This document shows positions 1 through 7,568 of a DNA stretch of 64,000 nucleotides, piece by piece. Source of the stretch: Mycolicibacterium monacense (GTDB taxonomy: Bacteria; Actinomycetota; Actinomycetes; Mycobacteriales; Mycobacteriaceae); the NCBI RefSeq assembly GCF_010731575.1, contig NZ_AP022617.1, positions 5,084,001-5,148,000 on the forward strand, given 5' to 3'. Position numbers and translations under genes: made by a program. How positions within the stretch are numbered: position 1 is the stretch's first letter; every line of letters begins with the position of its first letter. The notes beneath the pieces were generated by a model that did no database searches, was not told the origin of the DNA, and was given only the letters and a program-made list of their open reading frames with translations.

Positions 1-753
1 GCGGACGTCGACCTGGCGTACTTCACCTACCCGATCGCCGACAGCGTCGTACCCGCGGCGGCCAATTACGCGTCCGCCGTGCGCGAGGTGGGACGTAACC
101 CGCGCACGGTCGTGATGTCGATGGTACCGGCGAATCCGAACCACCCCAGTGACCTCGGCAAGGGGCAGTGGTTGGCCGAGCAGGTGATGGAGTGGGCCGG
201 TCTCGACCTGCTCATCCTCCGCGTCGCCGCACTGTTCCACGAGAACCTGCTGGTGCTGCACGCGCCGTCGATCAGGAAGGATGCGGTGTTCCGCAACTCC
301 TTCGGCGCGAGCGTGATCGGCTGGATCAGCGGCCGCGACGCCGCCGACCTGAGTGTGGCGGCACTCCTGCACCCGCAGCGCTTCGACGGGCCGGTGACCT
401 ATCCGCGGGGTTCGGAGCAGTTCACCCATGCGGACATCGCCGCGCTGCTCTCCGAGGTTCTCGGTACGCCGGTCGGGTTCACCCCGGTCTGCGAGGCCGC
501 GTGGCGCGACGAACTGCTCGAACTGGCGGACAACGACGCCGACGGCGTGGTGAATCCCGCGATGGCGCAGCACATCTCCGCGGTCGGTGCGGCGATATCC
601 CGCAGTGGCGCCGCGATTCCCGCCGACCCGGCGACGCTGCGGGATCTGATCGGGCGCGAACCCGTCAGCCTGCGTGAGTACCTCGTCGCCAACCGGGAAG
701 CGTTCGAGCCCATCGGCGTCCACACCCTTGTCGCGGCGAAAGCCGGGGAGTGA
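1..753 (+). CDS. NmrA-like NAD(P)-binding oxidoreductase (5' end missing)
   Basis: The frame is open from base 1, so the start and the nucleotide-binding N-terminus lie upstream of the window; about 250 C-terminal residues are visible. The segment resembles NmrA/atypical short-chain dehydrogenases: a middle part with a 'GKGQWLAEQVMEWAGLDL' stretch (linking helix of the Rossmann fold) and a C-terminal lobe with the 'FTHADIAALLSEVLG' region typical of this group. These proteins bind NAD(P)H and act either as reductases or as redox sensors; substrate cannot be inferred. The stop (TGA 751-753) lies just upstream of a DUF302 gene. Family assignment is by resemblance only. Confidence 0.7.
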   Translation, partial: ADVDLAYFTYPIADSVVPAAANYASAVREVGRNPRTVVMSMVPANPNHPSDLGKGQWLAEQVMEWAGLDLLILRVAALFHENLLVLHAPSIRKDAVFRNSFGASVIGWISGRDAADLSVAALLHPQRFDGPVTYPRGSEQFTHADIAALLSEVLGTPVGFTPVCEAAWRDELLELADNDADGVVNPAMAQHISAVGAAISRSGAAIPADPATLRDLIGREPVSLREYLVANREAFEPIGVHTLVAAKAGE

Positions 754-793
754 CCATGACCCAGGATGCGACATTGACCGCCCGAAGCGGGCA

Positions 794-1228
794 ATGGGGC
801 GCCGAGAACACCCGCACGACCTCGAGGCGTGCTCCAGCGCCGGCTCGTGGGCCGCCGTTCTGGCCGCGGTGGAAGTCCAGGCGCCCAACGGGTTCATGCG
901 GTACTACCGCGGCGACGTGACCTCGGTCGTCGCGGGGTCGCCGTCACGATGGAAGGCCACCCAGTACCTGATGGGCAACCACACCATCGCCGAGACGATG
1001 TTCCGCCATGATCCGTCGGTGATGGTGTACGCGCCGCTGCGCACACTCATTTACGAGGACCCGGCCGGACGCACCCGGCTGGCCGTCGACCAGCCCAGCC
1101 TGCAGTTCGCCAGCTTCGGTGACCCCCGGATCGCCGAGGTCGGCGTCCGTCTCGACGCTCTCCTGTCGAGGTTGATCGCGCTTCTCGGCGGCGAACCGCC
1201 CGAACTGGCCGCGCTCAGGCCGGGGTGA
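794..1228 (+). CDS. DUF302-family protein, possibly N-terminally truncated
   Basis: Frame from ATG 794 gives 144 residues. The middle and C-terminus ('PNGFMRYYRGDVTSVV', 'KATQYLMGNH', 'YAPLRTLIYED', 'DQPSLQFASFGD') match the DUF302 fold; function unknown. DUF302-type proteins usually have a further N-terminal strand-helix unit of about 40 residues ahead of the 'GSW' segment, and none is readable here. An ATG at 756, two bases after the preceding stop, is the natural coupled start but is in a different frame and would need a frameshift to reach the conserved part. The gene may therefore be N-terminally damaged. It converges with and overlaps the next gene by 14 bp. Confidence 0.55.
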   Translation: MGRREHPHDLEACSSAGSWAAVLAAVEVQAPNGFMRYYRGDVTSVVAGSPSRWKATQYLMGNHTIAETMFRHDPSVMVYAPLRTLIYEDPAGRTRLAVDQPSLQFASFGDPRIAEVGVRLDALLSRLIALLGGEPPELAALRPG

Positions 1229-2102
1229 TCGACACGAGGCTGAAGATCTTCACGCGGCCGGGCACTTTCGCATGACACTGCGACAGCAGCGGCTCCGACC
1301 ATCCCTCCTCGACGGTCACCTCGACCGGGCCGGACTCACCACCCAGCACCACCCGGTGGCGGTGGTCGGTGTGCTCGGCGGACAGCGTCGGCAGGCCCGC
1401 GATGCGGTCGTCGCCGTACTTCTCGCGGGCGAAGTACTGCGCGGCCTGCACCGCGTGCGGCAGCGAGGTGCGGCCCCGCAGATACCGGTTGTCCAACCGC
1501 CCGTCGAGATAGAGGCGGACGAGTTCGGCCGCATCGGTCGAGTCGACCCGTCCGTAGCACAGCCCTTCGGGCAGGATGAGCATCGTCGCCGCGAAGCGGT
1601 CACCACCCAGATGTGAACACTCCCAGGCCATCTCGGGATACGCGTCGGCGATCGCCGCGATCGCGCCGCGTCCGCGCACCGCACAGCACTGGTCGTGTCG
1701 TCCGTGTGCGCACACAGCCACGACCGGATCGGTCGACAGGGTGCCGTCGGATCCGTCCAGGGCGAGGTCGAGGTAGTCGCGTGGGTTGTCGACCTCGCCG
1801 GCGTACAGCGCTTCGCCGCCGACGACCGCCCGGGCGATGAACCACCGCCACCTCGGAGTGTCGGTCCGTCGTCCGTGGCGGCGGATGGCCGCGATGCGCA
1901 TCTTGGCGCCCTCGACGCGACGCACGATCGCCCGGCCGAGTTCGGGATCGATCACCGCCGGCGACTGCAGGAACGCCGAAGGTCCCCAGCCCCCGGGCAA
2001 TTCGAGCAGCACCCACGAGGACCCCGCCGACGCGGTGCCGTACATCGGGTCGCCGCGCAGCAGCGACTGGTCACTGCACGGTGCGCGCTTCCGTAGCGTC
2101 AT
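1215..2102 (-). CDS. Sucrase/ferredoxin-like (Suc_Fer, Apd1-type) thioredoxin-fold protein
   Basis: 295 residues from ATG 2102. Carries the Suc_Fer signature: Cys131 in 'VCAHGRHDQCC', Cys139/Cys140, then Cys162 and His164 in 'ECSHLGGDRF'. Relatives such as yeast Apd1 are thioredoxin-like [2Fe-2S] proteins with Cys/His ligands, so a soluble electron-transfer role is plausible. The start ATG overlaps the TGA of the upstream cupin gene (ATGA, 2099-2102), which indicates translational coupling: the two products are probably made together, and the ferredoxin could feed or repair the iron oxygenase. That link is inference. Confidence 0.8.
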   Translation of the reverse strand: MTLRKRAPCSDQSLLRGDPMYGTASAGSSWVLLELPGGWGPSAFLQSPAVIDPELGRAIVRRVEGAKMRIAAIRRHGRRTDTPRWRWFIARAVVGGEALYAGEVDNPRDYLDLALDGSDGTLSTDPVVAVCAHGRHDQCCAVRGRGAIAAIADAYPEMAWECSHLGGDRFAATMLILPEGLCYGRVDSTDAAELVRLYLDGRLDNRYLRGRTSLPHAVQAAQYFAREKYGDDRIAGLPTLSAEHTDHRHRVVLGGESGPVEVTVEEGWSEPLLSQCHAKVPGRVKIFSLVSITPA

Positions 2103-3313
2103 GCGGTGGCCGGCACCGGCGTCACGACCGCCTCGCGCAGCAGTCTGCGAATGAGCACGGTGCCGTCGGCCCGGTCGAGTCCGGGCAGGCTGCCCGCATC
2201 GGCGGCCAGACCGCGTTGCAGCGCAAGCACCGCCGGCGCACACGAGGCGGGGAAGGAGAGGACCCGGTCGGTCAACCGCAGCTCGATCCGGTCACCGGCG
2301 GTGTCGGCCGTCGCGACGAGTCCGTGACGCCACTGCACCGTCGTGGTGTCGGCGTGTGCGGCCGCGTCGAGCGTGGCCAGCGGGCGGACGGCGACCGGAC
2401 GCGTCCGGGAGGCGTGCGTGCGGGTCAACCGGTCGGCGGCCGCACCGCTGAGCGCGGTCGCATCGTCGCGCATGGTCTCGACCATCTGTGCCATCACCTT
2501 GGTCACCGCCGCGATGATCTCATCCCGGTCGGCGGGATCGCCGCCCATGGGCAGGGGCGCCCGGAACGCGGCGCTGTCCGCCAGCGCGTCGACGACGGCG
2601 CGGGCCACGTCGACACCCGTCACCGCAGAGACGCCGATGGTCAGGTGGATCGACGTCGTGTCCAGGGCGTGCGCCGAATGCACCCACCCGCGCGGCAGAT
2701 ACAGCGCGTCGCCGGGGGCGAGCACGGTGTCGATGACCGGTTCACCGGCGGCGCGTTCGGCGATAGCGTCACGGTGCTGCGTCCACGGTTGCGACGGCAG
2801 CGGGTGCGGATGGACGGGTTCGTGGACGACCCAGCGCTTCTCGCCGGCCGTCTGCAGCACGAAGACGTCATGGACGTCGTAGTGCGGGTCGAAGCCCCGG
2901 TTGCTAGGGGGCGTGATGTAGGCGTTGGCCTGCACCGGATGGCCGAGGTCGTCGACCAGGTGGCGGACGAGGTCGATGACCGGGGGCCAGAGCCGGTGTA
3001 GACCCTGCATGACGATGGTGGCGCCGGCGGAAAACTGGGTGAGCACCTTGGCGGAGTCCACCTGGTCGGGCATCTCGGCGCCGAAGCCGGCGGGCCCGAG
3101 ATAGCAGTCCTTGGCGAGGACGTCACCCTCTTTGGCGAGCCGGATGAACGGTGCGCGTACCCCGCGTTCGGCGATCAACTCGTCGACCATCCCGGGCGAG
3201 AGCAGGTCGGCGAAATCGCGGGGCAGCGCACCGGAACGGCTGAGCAGCGGTCGGCGACCCCAGTATTCGGTGGCGAACGTGTGCGGGTCGGTGGCGATGC
3301 AGCGGCTCAGCAT
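2099..3313 (-). CDS. JmjC-like cupin oxygenase (Cupin_4 / ribosomal-oxygenase family)
   Basis: 404 residues. The cupin core holds an Fe(II)-binding HxD (His144-Tyr-Asp146 in 'DPHYDVHD') and a distal His about 66 residues later (His212, 'PRGWVHSAH'), with 'ANAYITPP' ahead and 'SIHLTIG' after. This matches the YcfD/RoxA-MINA53 class of 2-oxoglutarate oxygenases that hydroxylate side chains of proteins (Arg or His of ribosomal proteins in known cases). It lies 9 bp downstream of a 60-codon repeat peptide gene and overlaps the Suc_Fer gene, so the three form a likely operon. Its protein target is unknown; the adjacent peptide is an attractive candidate. A role on ribosomal protein cannot be excluded. 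Confidence 0.82.
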   Translation of the reverse strand: MLSRCIATDPHTFATEYWGRRPLLSRSGALPRDFADLLSPGMVDELIAERGVRAPFIRLAKEGDVLAKDCYLGPAGFGAEMPDQVDSAKVLTQFSAGATIVMQGLHRLWPPVIDLVRHLVDDLGHPVQANAYITPPSNRGFDPHYDVHDVFVLQTAGEKRWVVHEPVHPHPLPSQPWTQHRDAIAERAAGEPVIDTVLAPGDALYLPRGWVHSAHALDTTSIHLTIGVSAVTGVDVARAVVDALADSAAFRAPLPMGGDPADRDEIIAAVTKVMAQMVETMRDDATALSGAAADRLTRTHASRTRPVAVRPLATLDAAAHADTTTVQWRHGLVATADTAGDRIELRLTDRVLSFPASCAPAVLALQRGLAADAGSLPGLDRADGTVLIRRLLREAVVTPVPATA

Positions 3314-3322
3314 GTCGGTCGG

Positions 3323-3505
3323 TCAGGCGGTGCCGTCGGCTCCGCCGTCGTGGCCTTCGGGGTTCGAACCGCCGTCGGCGGTTCCCTCGCCCGCGTCAGC
3401 GGTGCCGTCGGCCCCGCCGTCGTGGCCCTCGGGGTTGGATCCGCCGTCGGCGGTTCCCTCTCCTCCGCCGGGGGTGGTGGTGATGTCGTCGTCGTCGAGC
3501 GCCAT
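3323..3505 (-). CDS. 60-aa Asp/Gly-rich repeat peptide
   Basis: From ATG 3505, preceded by the ribosome-binding sequence AAAGGGA, the frame encodes 60 residues: an acidic leader 'MALDDDDITTTPGG' followed by two nearly identical copies of a 24-residue unit beginning 'GEGTADGGSNPEGHDGG' (G15-A38 and G39-A60). Composition is dominated by Gly, Asp, Ala, Thr; there is no signal peptide, Cys, Lys or Arg. It ends 9 bp before the start of the cupin oxygenase. Leader plus repeated core next to a protein-modifying oxygenase is the layout of a multi-core ribosomal peptide precursor, but it could equally be an intrinsically disordered structural protein. I do not know a function for this family. Confidence 0.7.
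   Translation of the reverse strand: MALDDDDITTTPGGGEGTADGGSNPEGHDGGADGTADAGEGTADGGSNPEGHDGGADGTA
3326..3463 (-). repeat. 72-bp in-frame tandem repeat in the Asp/Gly peptide gene
   Basis: Two head-to-tail copies (3392-3463 and 3326-3391, the second lacking the last two codons). On the plus strand the phrase GCGGTGCCGTCGG recurs at 3327 and 3399, exactly 72 bp apart; the copies differ at only a few bases. Each encodes the same 24-residue Gly/Asp unit, which points to recent internal duplication or selection to keep the copies alike. Confidence 0.85.
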
Positions 3506-3607
3506 GGTGTTCCCTTTCTGTCGCCGCAACTGTGTCGAGTACCGGCACGCTGCCCTGCCAGTGTTGCCGATGACGGGCCGCGCGAAACGGTGTTCGGGGA
3601 TCTTCGC

Positions 3608-4126
3608 TCAGGCCGGGGCGCCCGCTGCCGACCCGGTGGCCAGGTGGCCACCCCAGCGTTCGCGCGCGGACGCGACATCGAGGGGCCGGCGGGTCAGGGC
3701 GTCGTCATAGGACCAGGCGTCATCCGGTGCGCGCCAGATGATCTCGACCTCGATACCGTCGGGGTCGGCGGTGTACACCGACAGGTGCATGCCCTGGTCG
3801 ACCGCACCGCGCAGGACGCCGGCACTGTCCAGCGTCTGCTGGACCGCGGCGAGTTCGTCGAGTGTGCCGACCTCGAGGGCGACGTGGAACATTCCGGCGG
3901 GTCTCGGCGCGGACGTCGGGGCGGGCGCCTCCGCGTTCGCGATGAGGGCCAGATCGTGGTGGTTGGAACTCGGCGCCGGTGAGCGCAGGAACACCATGGC
4001 GGGCCAGTGCTCGGACCCCGGCAGTTCGGCGACCGGCAGCAGGCCGAGGAGGTCTCGGTAGAAGGTGAGTGAGCGGTCCAGATCGGATACGGACAGGACG
4101 ACGTGGTTGACGCGGCGCAGATGCAT
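3608..4126 (-). CDS. VOC-family (glyoxalase / extradiol dioxygenase-like) protein
   Basis: 172 residues. Starts 'MHLRRVNHVVLSVSDLDRSL' with the first metal-ligand His at position 8 and the FYRDLLGL helix typical of the vicinal-oxygen-chelate fold; the second half contains 'FHVALEVG' and 'DPDGIEVEIIW' with the conserved ligand Glu. Such proteins are metal-dependent dioxygenases, isomerases or resistance proteins; the substrate cannot be told. The gene is divergent from a MarR regulator, and the shared intergenic stretch carries an array of GGTAC operator-like sites, so MarR control of this gene is likely. Confidence 0.85.
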   Translation of the reverse strand: MHLRRVNHVVLSVSDLDRSLTFYRDLLGLLPVAELPGSEHWPAMVFLRSPAPSSNHHDLALIANAEAPAPTSAPRPAGMFHVALEVGTLDELAAVQQTLDSAGVLRGAVDQGMHLSVYTADPDGIEVEIIWRAPDDAWSYDDALTRRPLDVASARERWGGHLATGSAAGAPA

Positions 4127-4147
4127 GGGCGGATTCCTCAGAAGATA

Positions 4148-4205
4148 GTGGTACCACCTAATGTGGTACCACAGTAATATGACGGTACCTCATAGTGTGG
4201 TACTC
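4148..4205. promoter_or_regulatory. Array of GTGGTACCAC-type operator sites
   Basis: Two perfect 10-bp palindromes GTGGTACCAC at 4148-4157 and 4163-4172, and two degenerate copies at 4182-4191 and 4196-4205. The GGTAC cores begin at 4150, 4165, 4184 and 4199, spaced 15, 19 and 15 bp. They fill the divergent promoter between the VOC gene and the MarR gene. Binding by the adjacent MarR protein is inferred. Confidence 0.7.
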
Positions 4206-4219
4206 CGCTATAAAGGGGT

Positions 4220-4675
4220 GTGGCCGAGCGCGCAGAACGATCCGGGGTTCCGACACCCGCCGAGTTGTCCGACGACTTCTTCGCCGCGGCGAAGGCCCTG
4301 CGTGCGCACGCCAACGCCACACTGCGCGAGCAGGGATTCACCCTGGCCCGGGGCAAGTTGCTGTCGATCCTGCAGCGCAACGGGGCGACCCGGGTCAGTG
4401 TCCTGGCCCGCAAGCTAGACATCACCACGCGCAGCGTCACCGAGGCGGTGGACGCACTCGAACGCGACGGTCTCGTGCGACGGGCACCGGATCCCGCGGA
4501 CCGCCGGGCGGTGCTGGTATCGCTCACCGACCGCGGTTCGGCGGTCATCGACGCGGCGGTGCAGCCCCGGCGCGCCGCGATGAAGCGGACCTTCGGCGCC
4601 CTCAGTCCTTCGCAGCGCACCGAGTTGGCCGAACTTTTGGCCATCTTGACGGCGTCCACGCGCGACCCCGGGTGA
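4220..4675 (+). CDS. MarR-family transcriptional regulator
   Basis: 151 residues from GTG 4220. Winged-helix core: 'LREQGFTLARGKLLSIL', recognition region 'VSVLARKLDITTRSVTEAVDALERDGLV' and wing 'RRAPDPADRRAVLVSLTDRG' with the invariant Asp-Arg-Arg of MarR proteins. Members are homodimers that release palindromic operators on binding small phenolic or lipophilic ligands. The upstream intergenic region holds four GGTAC motifs and another palindromic copy lies before the downstream SDR gene, so it probably autoregulates and controls both flanking enzymes. No strong ribosome-binding site is visible; translation may be leaderless or nearly so. Confidence 0.88.
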   Translation: MAERAERSGVPTPAELSDDFFAAAKALRAHANATLREQGFTLARGKLLSILQRNGATRVSVLARKLDITTRSVTEAVDALERDGLVRRAPDPADRRAVLVSLTDRGSAVIDAAVQPRRAAMKRTFGALSPSQRTELAELLAILTASTRDPG

Positions 4676-4685
4676 CCGGTCCATA

Positions 4686-4704
4686 ACGGTGCCACTGGTA
4701 CCGT
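4686..4704. promoter_or_regulatory. Probable operator (ACGGT-N9-ACCGT) before the SDR gene
   Basis: ACGGT at 4686-4690 and ACCGT at 4700-4704 form an inverted repeat that contains GGTACC at 4697-4702, the same core as the sites upstream of the MarR gene. It sits 34 bp before the start of the SDR gene, suggesting common control. Confidence 0.5.
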
Positions 4705-4737
4705 AACGGCGCGATATCGCACGGACGAGGAGGCTCC

Positions 4738-5706
4738 ATGCTCATTGGCGTCACCGGCGGAACCGGATACGTGGGTGCCCACTGCGTACGTGCGCTGCTG
4801 GCCGACGGCCACCGGGTGCGGCTGCTGGTCGGACCGGACGCCGAGGGCGCACCGGTGCTCGAGCACCTCGCCGAACTCGGGGATGTCGACGTGTTCTCCG
4901 GTGACATTCGTGACGCCATGACGATCGACCGTCTGCTCGACGGGTGCGATGCGGTGCTGCACGGTGCGGGTGTGGTGGGCACCGACAACCGGCGTGCGGC
5001 GCTGATGTGGGAGGTCAACGCGTACGCGACGGAGGCGCTGCTCACCCAGGCGGTCCGCGCGGGCTTCGACCCCGTCATATCGGTGAGCAGTTACAGCTCG
5101 CTGTTCCCGCCGCCCGACGGGATCATCGGCCCGGACACACCGCCGGCGAACGGGCGCAGCGCGTATGCGAAGACCAAGGGGTACGCCGACCGGGTCGCGC
5201 GGCGACTCCAGGCCGAGGGCGCACCCGTCGTCGTGACGTATCCGTCGAGCGTGGTCGGTCCGGCGTTCCACACGGCGCCCGGCGTCACCGAACGGGGGTG
5301 GGCGCCGATCGTGCGGTTCGGTGTCGCACCCAGGTTGCGCGGCGGGATGCAGATGATCGACGTGCGTGACGTCGCCGCCGTGCACGCGGCGGCGATGAAA
5401 CCGGGCCGCGGGCCCAGACGCTACGTCTGCGGCGGCGAACTGATCACCTTCGATGAAATGATCGACGCCCTTAAGCGTGGATCCGGGCGACGGTTCCGCC
5501 GAATCCCGGTGAGTCAGGCGGTCTTTCGCGGGATGAGCCGGATCGGCGACACCCTCGCCGGCATCGTGCCGCTCGGTGACGGGCTCTCCTACGAGGCGGC
5601 GCTGCTCCTCACCGCGGCCACCCCGACCGACGATTCGGCCACCCTGGCCGACTTCGGCCTCACCTGGCGCTCGCCGACCGACGCCATCATCGCGTCGTTC
5701 GCCTGA
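4738..5706 (+). CDS. Extended SDR, NAD-dependent epimerase/dehydratase
   Basis: 322 residues; start ATG 4738 after the ribosome-binding sequence GAGGAGG. N-terminal Rossmann motif 'GVTGGTGYVG' (residues 4-13), Asp-rich strand end 'VFSGDIRD', active-site 'SAYAKTKGYAD' with the YxxxK pair, preceded by 'VSSYSS'. This is the extended short-chain dehydrogenase class (epimerases, dehydratases, dihydroflavonol-reductase-like). The substrate is not deducible. A copy of the MarR operator core lies directly upstream. Confidence 0.87.
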   Translation: MLIGVTGGTGYVGAHCVRALLADGHRVRLLVGPDAEGAPVLEHLAELGDVDVFSGDIRDAMTIDRLLDGCDAVLHGAGVVGTDNRRAALMWEVNAYATEALLTQAVRAGFDPVISVSSYSSLFPPPDGIIGPDTPPANGRSAYAKTKGYADRVARRLQAEGAPVVVTYPSSVVGPAFHTAPGVTERGWAPIVRFGVAPRLRGGMQMIDVRDVAAVHAAAMKPGRGPRRYVCGGELITFDEMIDALKRGSGRRFRRIPVSQAVFRGMSRIGDTLAGIVPLGDGLSYEAALLLTAATPTDDSATLADFGLTWRSPTDAIIASFA

Positions 5707-5709
5707 CGC

Positions 5710-6201
5710 TCACGCGCCCCGCTGGGCCAGATCGGCGCGCCCGGTCAGCGCCGCCGCCACGTGGGTGGTCAACGCGCGGATCGCGGGCACCGCGGCGACG
5801 AGGGCCTCGACATCGGCACCCGGTAGCGCCGTCAGCGCCGTGGACACCGACCGCGCGATGGCGTTCTCGATGGCCTCTCGCTCGGTGAGCGCGCGGGCCG
5901 TCGGTTCCAGTAACGACACCCGGCGGTCGCGGGGGTCGGCGTGTTTGTCGAGCAGTCCGCGTTCCATCAGCGAGCGAACCGCTGTGCTGACATTGCTCGA
6001 CTGCATGTTGGTGACCGCGGCGACCTCGGACACGCTGCGCCCCGGTGCCTCCATCACCGCCCGCAGCACCGCGAGTTCGGACGCGGGCAGCGGTTCGAGG
6101 CCGACCTGGGCCGGCCCGAAGCGGGCGAGCCGCCAGGACAGATCGTGCAGCACGAGCGCCAGGTCGCGGTACTGGTCAGTGGGTTCGGTCACAACCGGCA
6201 T
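5710..6201 (-). CDS. MarR-family regulator of the adjacent efflux gene
   Basis: 163 residues from ATG 6201. The DNA-binding segment 'SVSEVAAVTNMQSSNVSTAVRSLMERGLL' and wing 'ADPRDRRVSLLEPTARA' are diagnostic. The gene is divergent from a Bcr/CflA-type transporter, and a near-perfect palindrome (6219-6234) lies between the two starts, the usual arrangement of a substrate-responsive efflux repressor. Its 3' end lies 3 bp from the convergent SDR gene. Confidence 0.88.
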   Translation of the reverse strand: MPVVTEPTDQYRDLALVLHDLSWRLARFGPAQVGLEPLPASELAVLRAVMEAPGRSVSEVAAVTNMQSSNVSTAVRSLMERGLLDKHADPRDRRVSLLEPTARALTEREAIENAIARSVSTALTALPGADVEALVAAVPAIRALTTHVAAALTGRADLAQRGA

Positions 6202-6218
6202 ATAGATATTGTGACACA

Positions 6219-6234
6219 CATATTTTGAAATATG
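6219..6234. promoter_or_regulatory. Operator palindrome CATATTTTGAAATATG
   Basis: Seven-bp arms CATATTT/AAATATG around a TG centre, in an AT-rich stretch unlike the surrounding GC-rich DNA, between the divergent MarR and MFS genes. It most likely binds the MarR protein and covers both promoters. Confidence 0.7.
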
Positions 6235-6290
6235 TATGCTTTCATAAGCAAGTGCCCGGTCAATCTGCCGTGTGCGCTGGAAGGAATTCG

Positions 6291-7568
6291 ATGTCCCAGA
6301 AGATCGCGGCGGTCGCCTCGCCGCCGTCGGCCGTGCTGATCGCGGTTCTGGCGCTGCTCAACGCGGTGACGCCGTTCTCGATCGACATGTACCTGTCGGC
6401 GTTTCCCGAGATGGCGTCCGAATTCGGGGTGTCGCCGTCGACGATCCAGCTCTCGCTCACGACGTTCTTGATCGGGTTGGCGGTCGGTCAGCTGATCATC
6501 GGAACGCTGTCCGACCGTTACGGCCGGCGGCGGCCTCTCATCATCGGCACCGTGGCCTGCGTCGCGGTCAGCGTGGCGTGCGCAGTGGCCCCGTCGATTG
6601 CGCTGCTGATCGGCCTGCGGTTCGCGCAGGGGTTCTGCGGTGCGGCGGGTGTGGTGATCTCCCGGGCCGTGATCGCCGACCGCTCCCGCGGCTCTCGCGC
6701 CGCGCGGCTGTTCGCGGTGATGATGCTCATCGGCGTTCTCGCGCCGATCACCGCCCCGATCCTCGGCGGCGTCATCGTCACCGGATTCGGCTGGCGCGCC
6801 GTCTTCCTCGCGCTGGCGGTACTGAACCTGGCGACCCTGCTGGGCGTCGTGCTGACCGTGCGCGAATCCCTGTCCGAAGAGCATCGGCGGCCGGGCGGTC
6901 TCAAGGCGTTGGGGGTCAGTGCCCGGACGGTGCTGGGGAACCGCCACTACCTGGGCCACACGCTGGTGATGGCGTTTGCCGCAGCCGCGATGTTCGGCTA
7001 CATCGCGGCGTCGCCGTTCGTCGTCCAGAACATTCTGGGGTTCTCACCCGCGGCGTACTCGGTGACGTTCGGATCGTGTGCGCTCGCCGTCGGCGCGGGC
7101 AGCCTGATCTCCGCGCGCCTGGTGCGGACCGTCGCGCCGCGCCGGGTGCTGATGGGCGGCGTCACGGCACTGCTGGTGGTCGCGACACTGATGTTGCTCA
7201 ACGTCACCGCCGGCCACGTGATCGGTTGGGCCACCATCGCTTTGATGGCGTGCTTCATGGGCAGTATCGGATTCGTCTACGCCAACGCCACCGCGCTGGC
7301 CCTCGGCGAGGTACCGCGCGCGGCGGGAACCGGATCGGCCGTTCTGGGTTTCCTCCAGTACGGCATGGGTGCGGTCACCCCGCCGCTGGTCGGGTTGGCG
7401 GGTCAGTCCAGCGCGGTGCCGATGGGTCTGGTGATGTTCGGCGCCGCGACGCTGGCGGCCCTGTCGATGTTCGTGCTGACCCGCGGGCATGTGCCGTTCG
7501 GGGATGAGGACGACGCCGCCGGCGACGCGCCGGTCACTGTGTCAACAGGTGGCACCACGAGTCGGTGA
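6291..7568 (+). CDS. MFS multidrug efflux transporter (Bcr/CflA type)
   Basis: 425 residues from ATG 6291 (AAGGA upstream). Twelve hydrophobic segments are apparent; the loop 2-3 motif 'GTLSDRYGRRRPLIIG' (MFS motif A) follows TM2 and 'APITAPILGG' is the drug-antiporter motif C in TM5. 'ALLNAVTPFSIDMYLSAFP' at the N-terminus is typical of Bcr/CflA drug:H+ antiporters. It is regulated by the divergent MarR gene through the palindrome at 6219. The 3' end overlaps the convergent TetR gene by 35 bp. Confidence 0.9.
   Translation: MSQKIAAVASPPSAVLIAVLALLNAVTPFSIDMYLSAFPEMASEFGVSPSTIQLSLTTFLIGLAVGQLIIGTLSDRYGRRRPLIIGTVACVAVSVACAVAPSIALLIGLRFAQGFCGAAGVVISRAVIADRSRGSRAARLFAVMMLIGVLAPITAPILGGVIVTGFGWRAVFLALAVLNLATLLGVVLTVRESLSEEHRRPGGLKALGVSARTVLGNRHYLGHTLVMAFAAAAMFGYIAASPFVVQNILGFSPAAYSVTFGSCALAVGAGSLISARLVRTVAPRRVLMGGVTALLVVATLMLLNVTAGHVIGWATIALMACFMGSIGFVYANATALALGEVPRAAGTGSAVLGFLQYGMGAVTPPLVGLAGQSSAVPMGLVMFGAATLAALSMFVLTRGHVPFGDEDDAAGDAPVTVSTGGTTSR

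Follow-up and report, generated by a model that had tools for sequence, protein, structure and literature searches.

The JmjC_2 (PF08007) oxygenases YcfD, NO66 (RIOX1) and MINA53 (RIOX2) act on ribosomal proteins, and the residue hydroxylated by the known relatives is His or Arg (PMC6006756). BipG and PbsQ, which are JmjC or cupin-like enzymes, hydroxylate ornithine in biphenomycin-type ribosomally synthesized and post-translationally modified peptides (RiPPs; PMC12707348, PMC12257519). In addition, folds resembling the RiPP recognition element (RRE), defined as three strands followed by helices, are fused to PF08007 in fish and algae, and bacterial homologues of ~30% identity are placed in 'RiPP-like genomic contexts' (PMC12710340). 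Published work already covers both RiPPs that have JmjC/cupin hydroxylases and PF08007 proteins with RRE-like folds. Here, we investigated a 64,000-nucleotide stretch of Mycolicibacterium monacense (GCF_010731575.1, contig NZ_AP022617.1, positions 5,084,001 to 5,148,000; hereafter, the window), whose minus strand carries three abutting genes in the order repeat peptide, JmjC_2 cupin, thioredoxin-like ferredoxin (TLF; Table 1). They constitute a real, conserved peptide–oxygenase pair with a usual ferredoxin partner. The pair is widespread in actinobacteria, and from the gene arrangement and its conservation we infer that the cupin very probably oxidizes the adjacent repeat peptide.

Like NO66, MINA53 and YcfD, the cupin of the window has a JmjC_2 domain, an HxD...H triad, a conserved Lys and a C-terminal winged helix; unlike them, it is encoded right after a repeat peptide, is patchily distributed within its genus, and comes with no indication of a ribosomal substrate. 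Like the RRE-bearing PF08007 proteins, the nearest published case that we found, it is a PF08007 enzyme that has a winged-helix domain and sits in a RiPP-like neighbourhood, whereas the precursor family, its repeats, the partner ferredoxin, the distribution and the proposed chemistry described here go beyond the main-text account of those proteins (PMC12710340). BipG and PbsQ offer the parallel of a JmjC/cupin-like hydroxylase that acts on a ribosomal peptide; PbsQ differs in acting on ornithine, within a larger MNIO/radical-SAM cluster for which acidic repeats are not described (PMC12707348, PMC12257519).

The initial annotation of the window, made from the sequence alone, described a 60-codon open reading frame (ORF) that stops 9 bp ahead of a cupin gene, which in turn overlaps a ferredoxin gene. 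The coordinates bear this out: 9 nt separate the peptide stop from the cupin ATG, and the TLF ATG overlaps the cupin TGA by 4 nt (ATGA). Its cassette span of 2099..3505 contains the peptide and the cupin but leaves nearly the whole ferredoxin gene outside. The repeat, which it gave as two near-identical 24-residue units, is present as two units of 22 residues each, identical to one another and linked by DA. The cupin matches PF08007 with 99.8 bits against a gathering score of 22, the ferredoxin matches PF06999 with 58.2 bits against a cut-off of 34.9, and the M. monacense genome (6.04 Mb, one contig) holds a single match each for the peptide, PF08007 and PF06999.

A scan of genome contigs with the cupin returned 173 relatives, of which the best 80, from Mycobacterium/Mycolicibacterium, Gordonia, Williamsia, Antrihabitans and Dietzia and including some metagenome-assembled genomes, constitute our named loci. 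All 80 carry the peptide sequence directly upstream of the cupin and a TLF directly downstream, which is the co-occurrence of three families envisaged by the initial annotation. The variation in repeat number under a kept leader that it had also anticipated is found as well: the peptide ORF is intact in 76 of the 80 (including L091, missed by the unit regular expression), with two units in 21 and three in 55, and is interrupted by an N gap at L080. In L034, L055 and L097 the frame is broken inside the repeats, perhaps by sequencing error in these GC-rich repeats. Among 118 genomes of the genus, the peptide is present in 42, the cupin in 43 and neither in 75; the same 42 genomes hold both, the 43rd cupin being a paralogue of 33% identity, so that presence and absence agree in 117 genomes. 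Peptide and cupin lie on one strand in 42/42, with the matched pieces 11–95 nt apart. Across the order, 180 of 298 genomes are cupin-positive (E <= 1e-20, paralogues included), and all 95 genomes matching the mycobacterial-type peptide profile fall within these 180. Fisher's test, which ignores relatedness, gives p 2e-31 for the genus and 2e-27 for the order.

The peptide is conserved as a protein. When 206 units from the named loci are aligned, 19 of the 22 positions carry one residue in at least 96% of units, with variation at positions 4, 12 and 21 and in the spacers, while each position, invariant residues included, uses two to five synonymous codons. Over 392 comparisons of equal-length peptides, the median proportions of non-synonymous (pN) and synonymous (pS) differences are 0.063 and 0.49, as under purifying selection. 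Because synonymous codons vary at invariant residues and pN is far below pS, selection acts on the protein. The window peptide has no Pfam match at E <= 1 and a single NCBIfam match far below threshold, and we found no description of this family in the open-licence PMC literature (supplements lay outside that search).

Since the peptide profile misses diverged peptides, we turned to the upstream sequence itself in another 94 locus records (re-fetched duplicates dropped; the window included as L119). Several of L119–L135 are genomes also present in the named L031–L110, so the two sets are not independent. An Asp-rich ORF precedes the cupin in 91 of the 94 records; two others, L139 and L227, have this region cut by contig ends. 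A regular expression for an acidic-acidic-[IMVT] motif within the first 22 residues finds a leader in 84 of these 91, one of which (L213) looks spurious, and in L184 and L245 the motif lies just past the 22-residue limit. Across Actinomycetota the acidic 'DDDI'-type leader is mostly kept, ranging from ALDDDDITT to LSDEDIETV-like, and the core varies. Its types comprise GEGxADGGSNPxGHDGGADG, poly(ADGG) and DADA/TDGDA repeats, running from EGPADGGATPGQHDGGADGSA repeats through poly(ADGG) as far as the DADAADADGADGDA or TDGDATDGD repeats that deep lineages have; L217, with a TDGDATDGD/DADA-type core, was named as Euzebyales via an identical protein. A linked ribosomal precursor with a conserved leader and a variable core is a feature of RiPP systems, and this cassette shows it. 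The control set consists of 13 JmjC_2 loci (12 genomes), picked from the order-scan positives for their weak cupin scores (E 2e-22 to 8e-41), and none of them has an upstream Asp-rich small-residue ORF; G387 (E 7e-48), chosen in the same way, does have one.

The cupin belongs to a family of protein hydroxylases, as the initial annotation had supposed. By profile its nearest solved structures are NO66 (E 9e-27) and MINA53 (E 4e-21), with YcfD further down, and Foldseek with the AlphaFold2 model places NO66 at the top (E 2e-21) with a template-modelling score of only 0.45. The placement of domains in this model is uncertain because its overall confidence is limited (pLDDT 77, pTM 0.64) and residues 50–85 are poor. 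Judged by sequence, the 2-oxoglutarate (2OG) oxygenase active site is intact: H144 is conserved in 193/193 non-gap rows and D146, H212 and K159 in 192/193 each, and from family knowledge we take H144, D146 and H212 to be the iron triad and K159 the 2OG-binding Lys. Sources name the relatives 'ribosomal protein L16 Arg81 hydroxylase' or 'NO66'.

The C-terminal domain is a candidate leader binder. The model predicts strands at residues 334–339, 342–347 and 351–355, preceded by a short strand at 326–328, and helices at 356–366, 373–375 and 381–393, an order that matches the RRE definition given in PMC12710340. Where a leader exists, Arg389 (last helix) is 98% conserved, whereas two of the three leader-less sequences that could be aligned lack it; a link between the missing Arg and the missing leader is suggestive only, the sample being very small and its sequences perhaps related.

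The third protein is predicted to have a thioredoxin-like ferredoxin fold, and the initial annotation called it Apd1-type. The CX8C motif (each Cys in 169/169 non-gap TLF rows) and the fold fit that name, but HX3H does not: in 170 aligned rows the site reads HX3D in 159, HX3C in 9 and HX3E in 2. TLF thus resembles Apd1/Aim32, members of a sucrase/ferredoxin-like family with CX8C, a thioredoxin-like ferredoxin fold and the full motif CX8CXnHX3H, but its cluster cannot be bis-histidinyl in the same way, because Asp (or Cys or Glu) replaces the second His (PMC8482512). A Cys/Cys/His/Asp [2Fe-2S] site in place of HX3H ligation is possible. Foldseek with the TLF model gave no match below E 0.19, and a second structural look found the Aquifex TLF. 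The ferredoxin had also been proposed as the electron donor of the oxygenase. 2OG oxygenases need no ferredoxin, and no TLF profile match at E <= 1e-6 was found in 8/8 tested genomes of one family that keeps peptide and cupin. We therefore reject TLF as an obligatory partner or required donor and regard it as accessory. One Dietzia locus has a further stretch (L102:9355-9570), ~4.4 kb beyond the first TLF, that shares 61% identity with residues 165–235 of the window TLF.

A putative promoter precedes the peptide. Of 80 upstream regions, drawn from the window and 79 named loci, 53 contain the pattern GTTT-N14-18-GG[GTC]A[ATC], as against 1.84 matching regions on average and at most 5 in 50 mononucleotide shuffles; we settled on the pattern after inspecting the sequences, and shared descent inflates the count. 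Matches are mostly from Mycobacterium/Mycolicibacterium, as well as 2/10 Gordonia and Antrihabitans, and there are none in Dietzia or Williamsia. The Mycobacterium smegmatis SigF consensus is GTTT-N14-19-GGGTA, with GGGCA variants listed, that of sigF itself included (PMC4694148). The likeness is a lead towards general-stress (SigF-type) control of the peptide, not a proof of it.

Taken as a whole, the explanation that we favour, and consider probable, is that the peptide is a RiPP-like precursor multiply oxidized by a NO66/MINA-type 2OG oxygenase, with Asp the likeliest target. The small gene would encode a dedicated ribosomal precursor, in which tandem Asp-rich units come after a short acidic leader of the form M-x-[LI]-x-D-D-D-[IM]-T-T, and the adjacent JmjC cupin would be its modifying enzyme. 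The winged-helix domain would probably hold the leader while the cupin, with Fe(II), 2-oxoglutarate and O2, oxidizes side chains at several repeated sites, and most likely the Asp residues of DGG and DxD motifs are the ones that become beta-hydroxylated. In loci that have it, the ferredoxin may serve an accessory redox step. The product would probably be an intracellular, multiply oxidized and possibly metal-binding peptide, in mycobacteria probably made under SigF-type control. We extend this only tentatively to a phylum-wide peptide class, in which NO66-type oxygenases would turn stress-made DGG/DADA repeats into beta-hydroxyaspartate-rich, metal-chelating polymers, accompanied by a Cys/Cys/His/Asp ferredoxin. 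Hydroxyaspartate is a siderophore ligand.

Several observations weigh against the favoured explanation. At the level of the peptide, the leader motif is absent from L186, L187, L205, L210 and L212, the upstream region of L247 holds no Asp-rich peptide ORF, the upstream ORF of L213 and L250 is acidic and not repetitive, and L224/L239 and L245 carry quite different repeats. Three control paralogues (L254–L256) share a different 43-residue ORF, so having a small ORF upstream does not set this clade apart. As for leader binding, the RRE topology is not clean, because the middle helix has only three residues, and the C-terminal domain alone has no Pfam match. Most promoter elements carry GGCAA, not GGGTA, and the words cupin, JmjC and sucrase do not occur in the text of the M. 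smegmatis SigF paper (PMC4694148). In a crude six-frame clustering of neighbours, neither a protease nor a transporter came up repeatedly next to the three genes, unlike many RiPP clusters; no further family appeared in more than four lineages, save a mixed antisense-ORF component that we took for shadows. Genes for leader removal and export, which are frequent in RiPP systems without strictly defining them, could be located elsewhere. Finally, Asp as the site is argued from conservation, and the closest characterized enzymes hydroxylate His or Arg.

Two of these deviating groups deserve description in their own right. The cores of L224 and L245 read ADGTDQGV..GGTYGPRDA and EPTEDDENLDAPGEHSQDTGD twice, respectively, with the same leader type and cupin. 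The ORF common to L254–L256 (MAQEQS...DNDGNDG, ~110 nt upstream of the match) is non-repetitive and fell just below the threshold used for the control count; it may belong, as peptide partner, to a sister group of enzymes.

The choice of residue leads to the first alternative, that the cupin hydroxylates His (or Asn/Pro) of the repeat and that the Asp-rich frame is only context. His is present in every named peptide tested, His14 in 200 and Asn10 in 204 of the 206 units, and the nearest solved structures, NO66 and MINA53, are histidyl hydroxylases acting on ribosomal His. However, other lineages have Q, R, K, N or S in place of His14, 20 of the 91 wider cores have no His, and pure ADGG and DADA cores have neither Asn nor Pro. 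Asp is the residue common to all core types, and with His missing from those 20 we favour beta-hydroxylation of Asp; His, one of the targets named by the initial annotation, is rejected as the common denominator, and we consider this alternative rather unlikely.

That the cupin makes a cross-link, a cyclization or a cleavage, and not a simple hydroxylation, strikes us as improbable. DG motifs are prone to form succinimides, and a 2025 paper in the Journal of the American Chemical Society (147, 26693), to go by its title, reportedly concerns 2OG-dioxygenase-catalysed macrocyclization in RiPPs, but the wide variation in core spacing and length fits repeated modification of single residues better. 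We give equally little credit to the proposal that the peptide acts on the cupin as an acidic, disordered partner or inhibitor and is not its substrate, the real target of the enzyme (such as a ribosomal protein) lying elsewhere. The database names of the relatives and the ribosomal targets of YcfD, NO66 and MINA (PMC6006756) speak for it; against it, repeat number and core vary under a constant leader, as expected of a substrate, and the cupin is patchy within one genus (43/118), which is odd for a ribosomal modification. Lastly, it is highly improbable that the upstream ORF has no protein function and is simply low-complexity, GC-rich sequence, for although some lineages have a core almost entirely of Gly, Ala and Asp, the pN/pS contrast with its synonymous changes at invariant residues, the conserved leader and the lack of such an ORF at the 13 weaker JmjC_2 loci of related genomes tell against it, and for the mycobacterial form it is already refuted.

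The adjacent peptide provides a defined, locally encoded candidate substrate for a set of PF08007 proteins labelled as ribosomal hydroxylases or NO66; in databases the enzyme is currently labelled as ribosome-modifying and the peptide as a hypothetical protein. Relatives of the cupin are numerous (4676 at E <= 1e-3 among 7996 candidates), and the peptide does not necessarily stand beside all of them. The human NO66/MINA-like enzymes would be tied to bacterial leader-guided peptide oxidation, and if the hydroxyaspartate-polymer extension were true, many actinobacterial 'ribosomal oxygenases' would be peptide maturases. The substrate question can be tested directly with two genes, and the ferredoxin with its HX3D motif is of chemical interest in its own right.

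Table 1. Coordinates of the features of the peptide–cupin–ferredoxin locus within the window
Feature	Position	Strand	Basis or remark
Precursor-like peptide coding sequence, 60 aa + stop	3323..3505	-	ORF call
Acidic leader MALDDDDITTTPGG	3464..3505	-	Retained across differing cores and repeat numbers
Core unit 1, 22 residues, GEGTADGGSNPEGHDGGADGTA	3398..3463	-	206 aligned units
Spacer DA between core units	3392-3397	-	
Core unit 2, identical to unit 1	3326..3391	-	ORF and unit alignment
JmjC_2 (NO66/MINA/YcfD-type) cupin oxygenase, 404 aa	2099..3313	-	PF08007, E 1.1e-28
HxD metal-binding residues H144, D146	2876..2884	-	Alignment; roles by family knowledge
K159	2837-2839	-	
Distal H212	2678-2680	-	
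Winged-helix-like domain, candidate leader-binding (RRE-like)	2117..2338	-	AlphaFold2 model
Predicted thioredoxin-like [2Fe-2S] ferredoxin (TLF), 295 aa	1215..2102	-	PF06999
Predicted cluster-ligand region CX8C...HX3D (C131, C140, H164, D168)	1599..1712	-	Alignment
SigF-like promoter element GTTT...CGGCAA	3564..3588	-	83 nt upstream of peptide ATG

Around the locus, no sigma-70-type promoter was found in 1100-4200 and no RNA element reached its gathering score in 1-7000. Further upstream, a terminator-like hairpin with a palindrome-like GTGGTACCAC (4148-4172, minus strand) lies between a glyoxalase-family gene (3608-4126) and a MarR-like gene (4220-4675); the hairpin is perhaps an operator.

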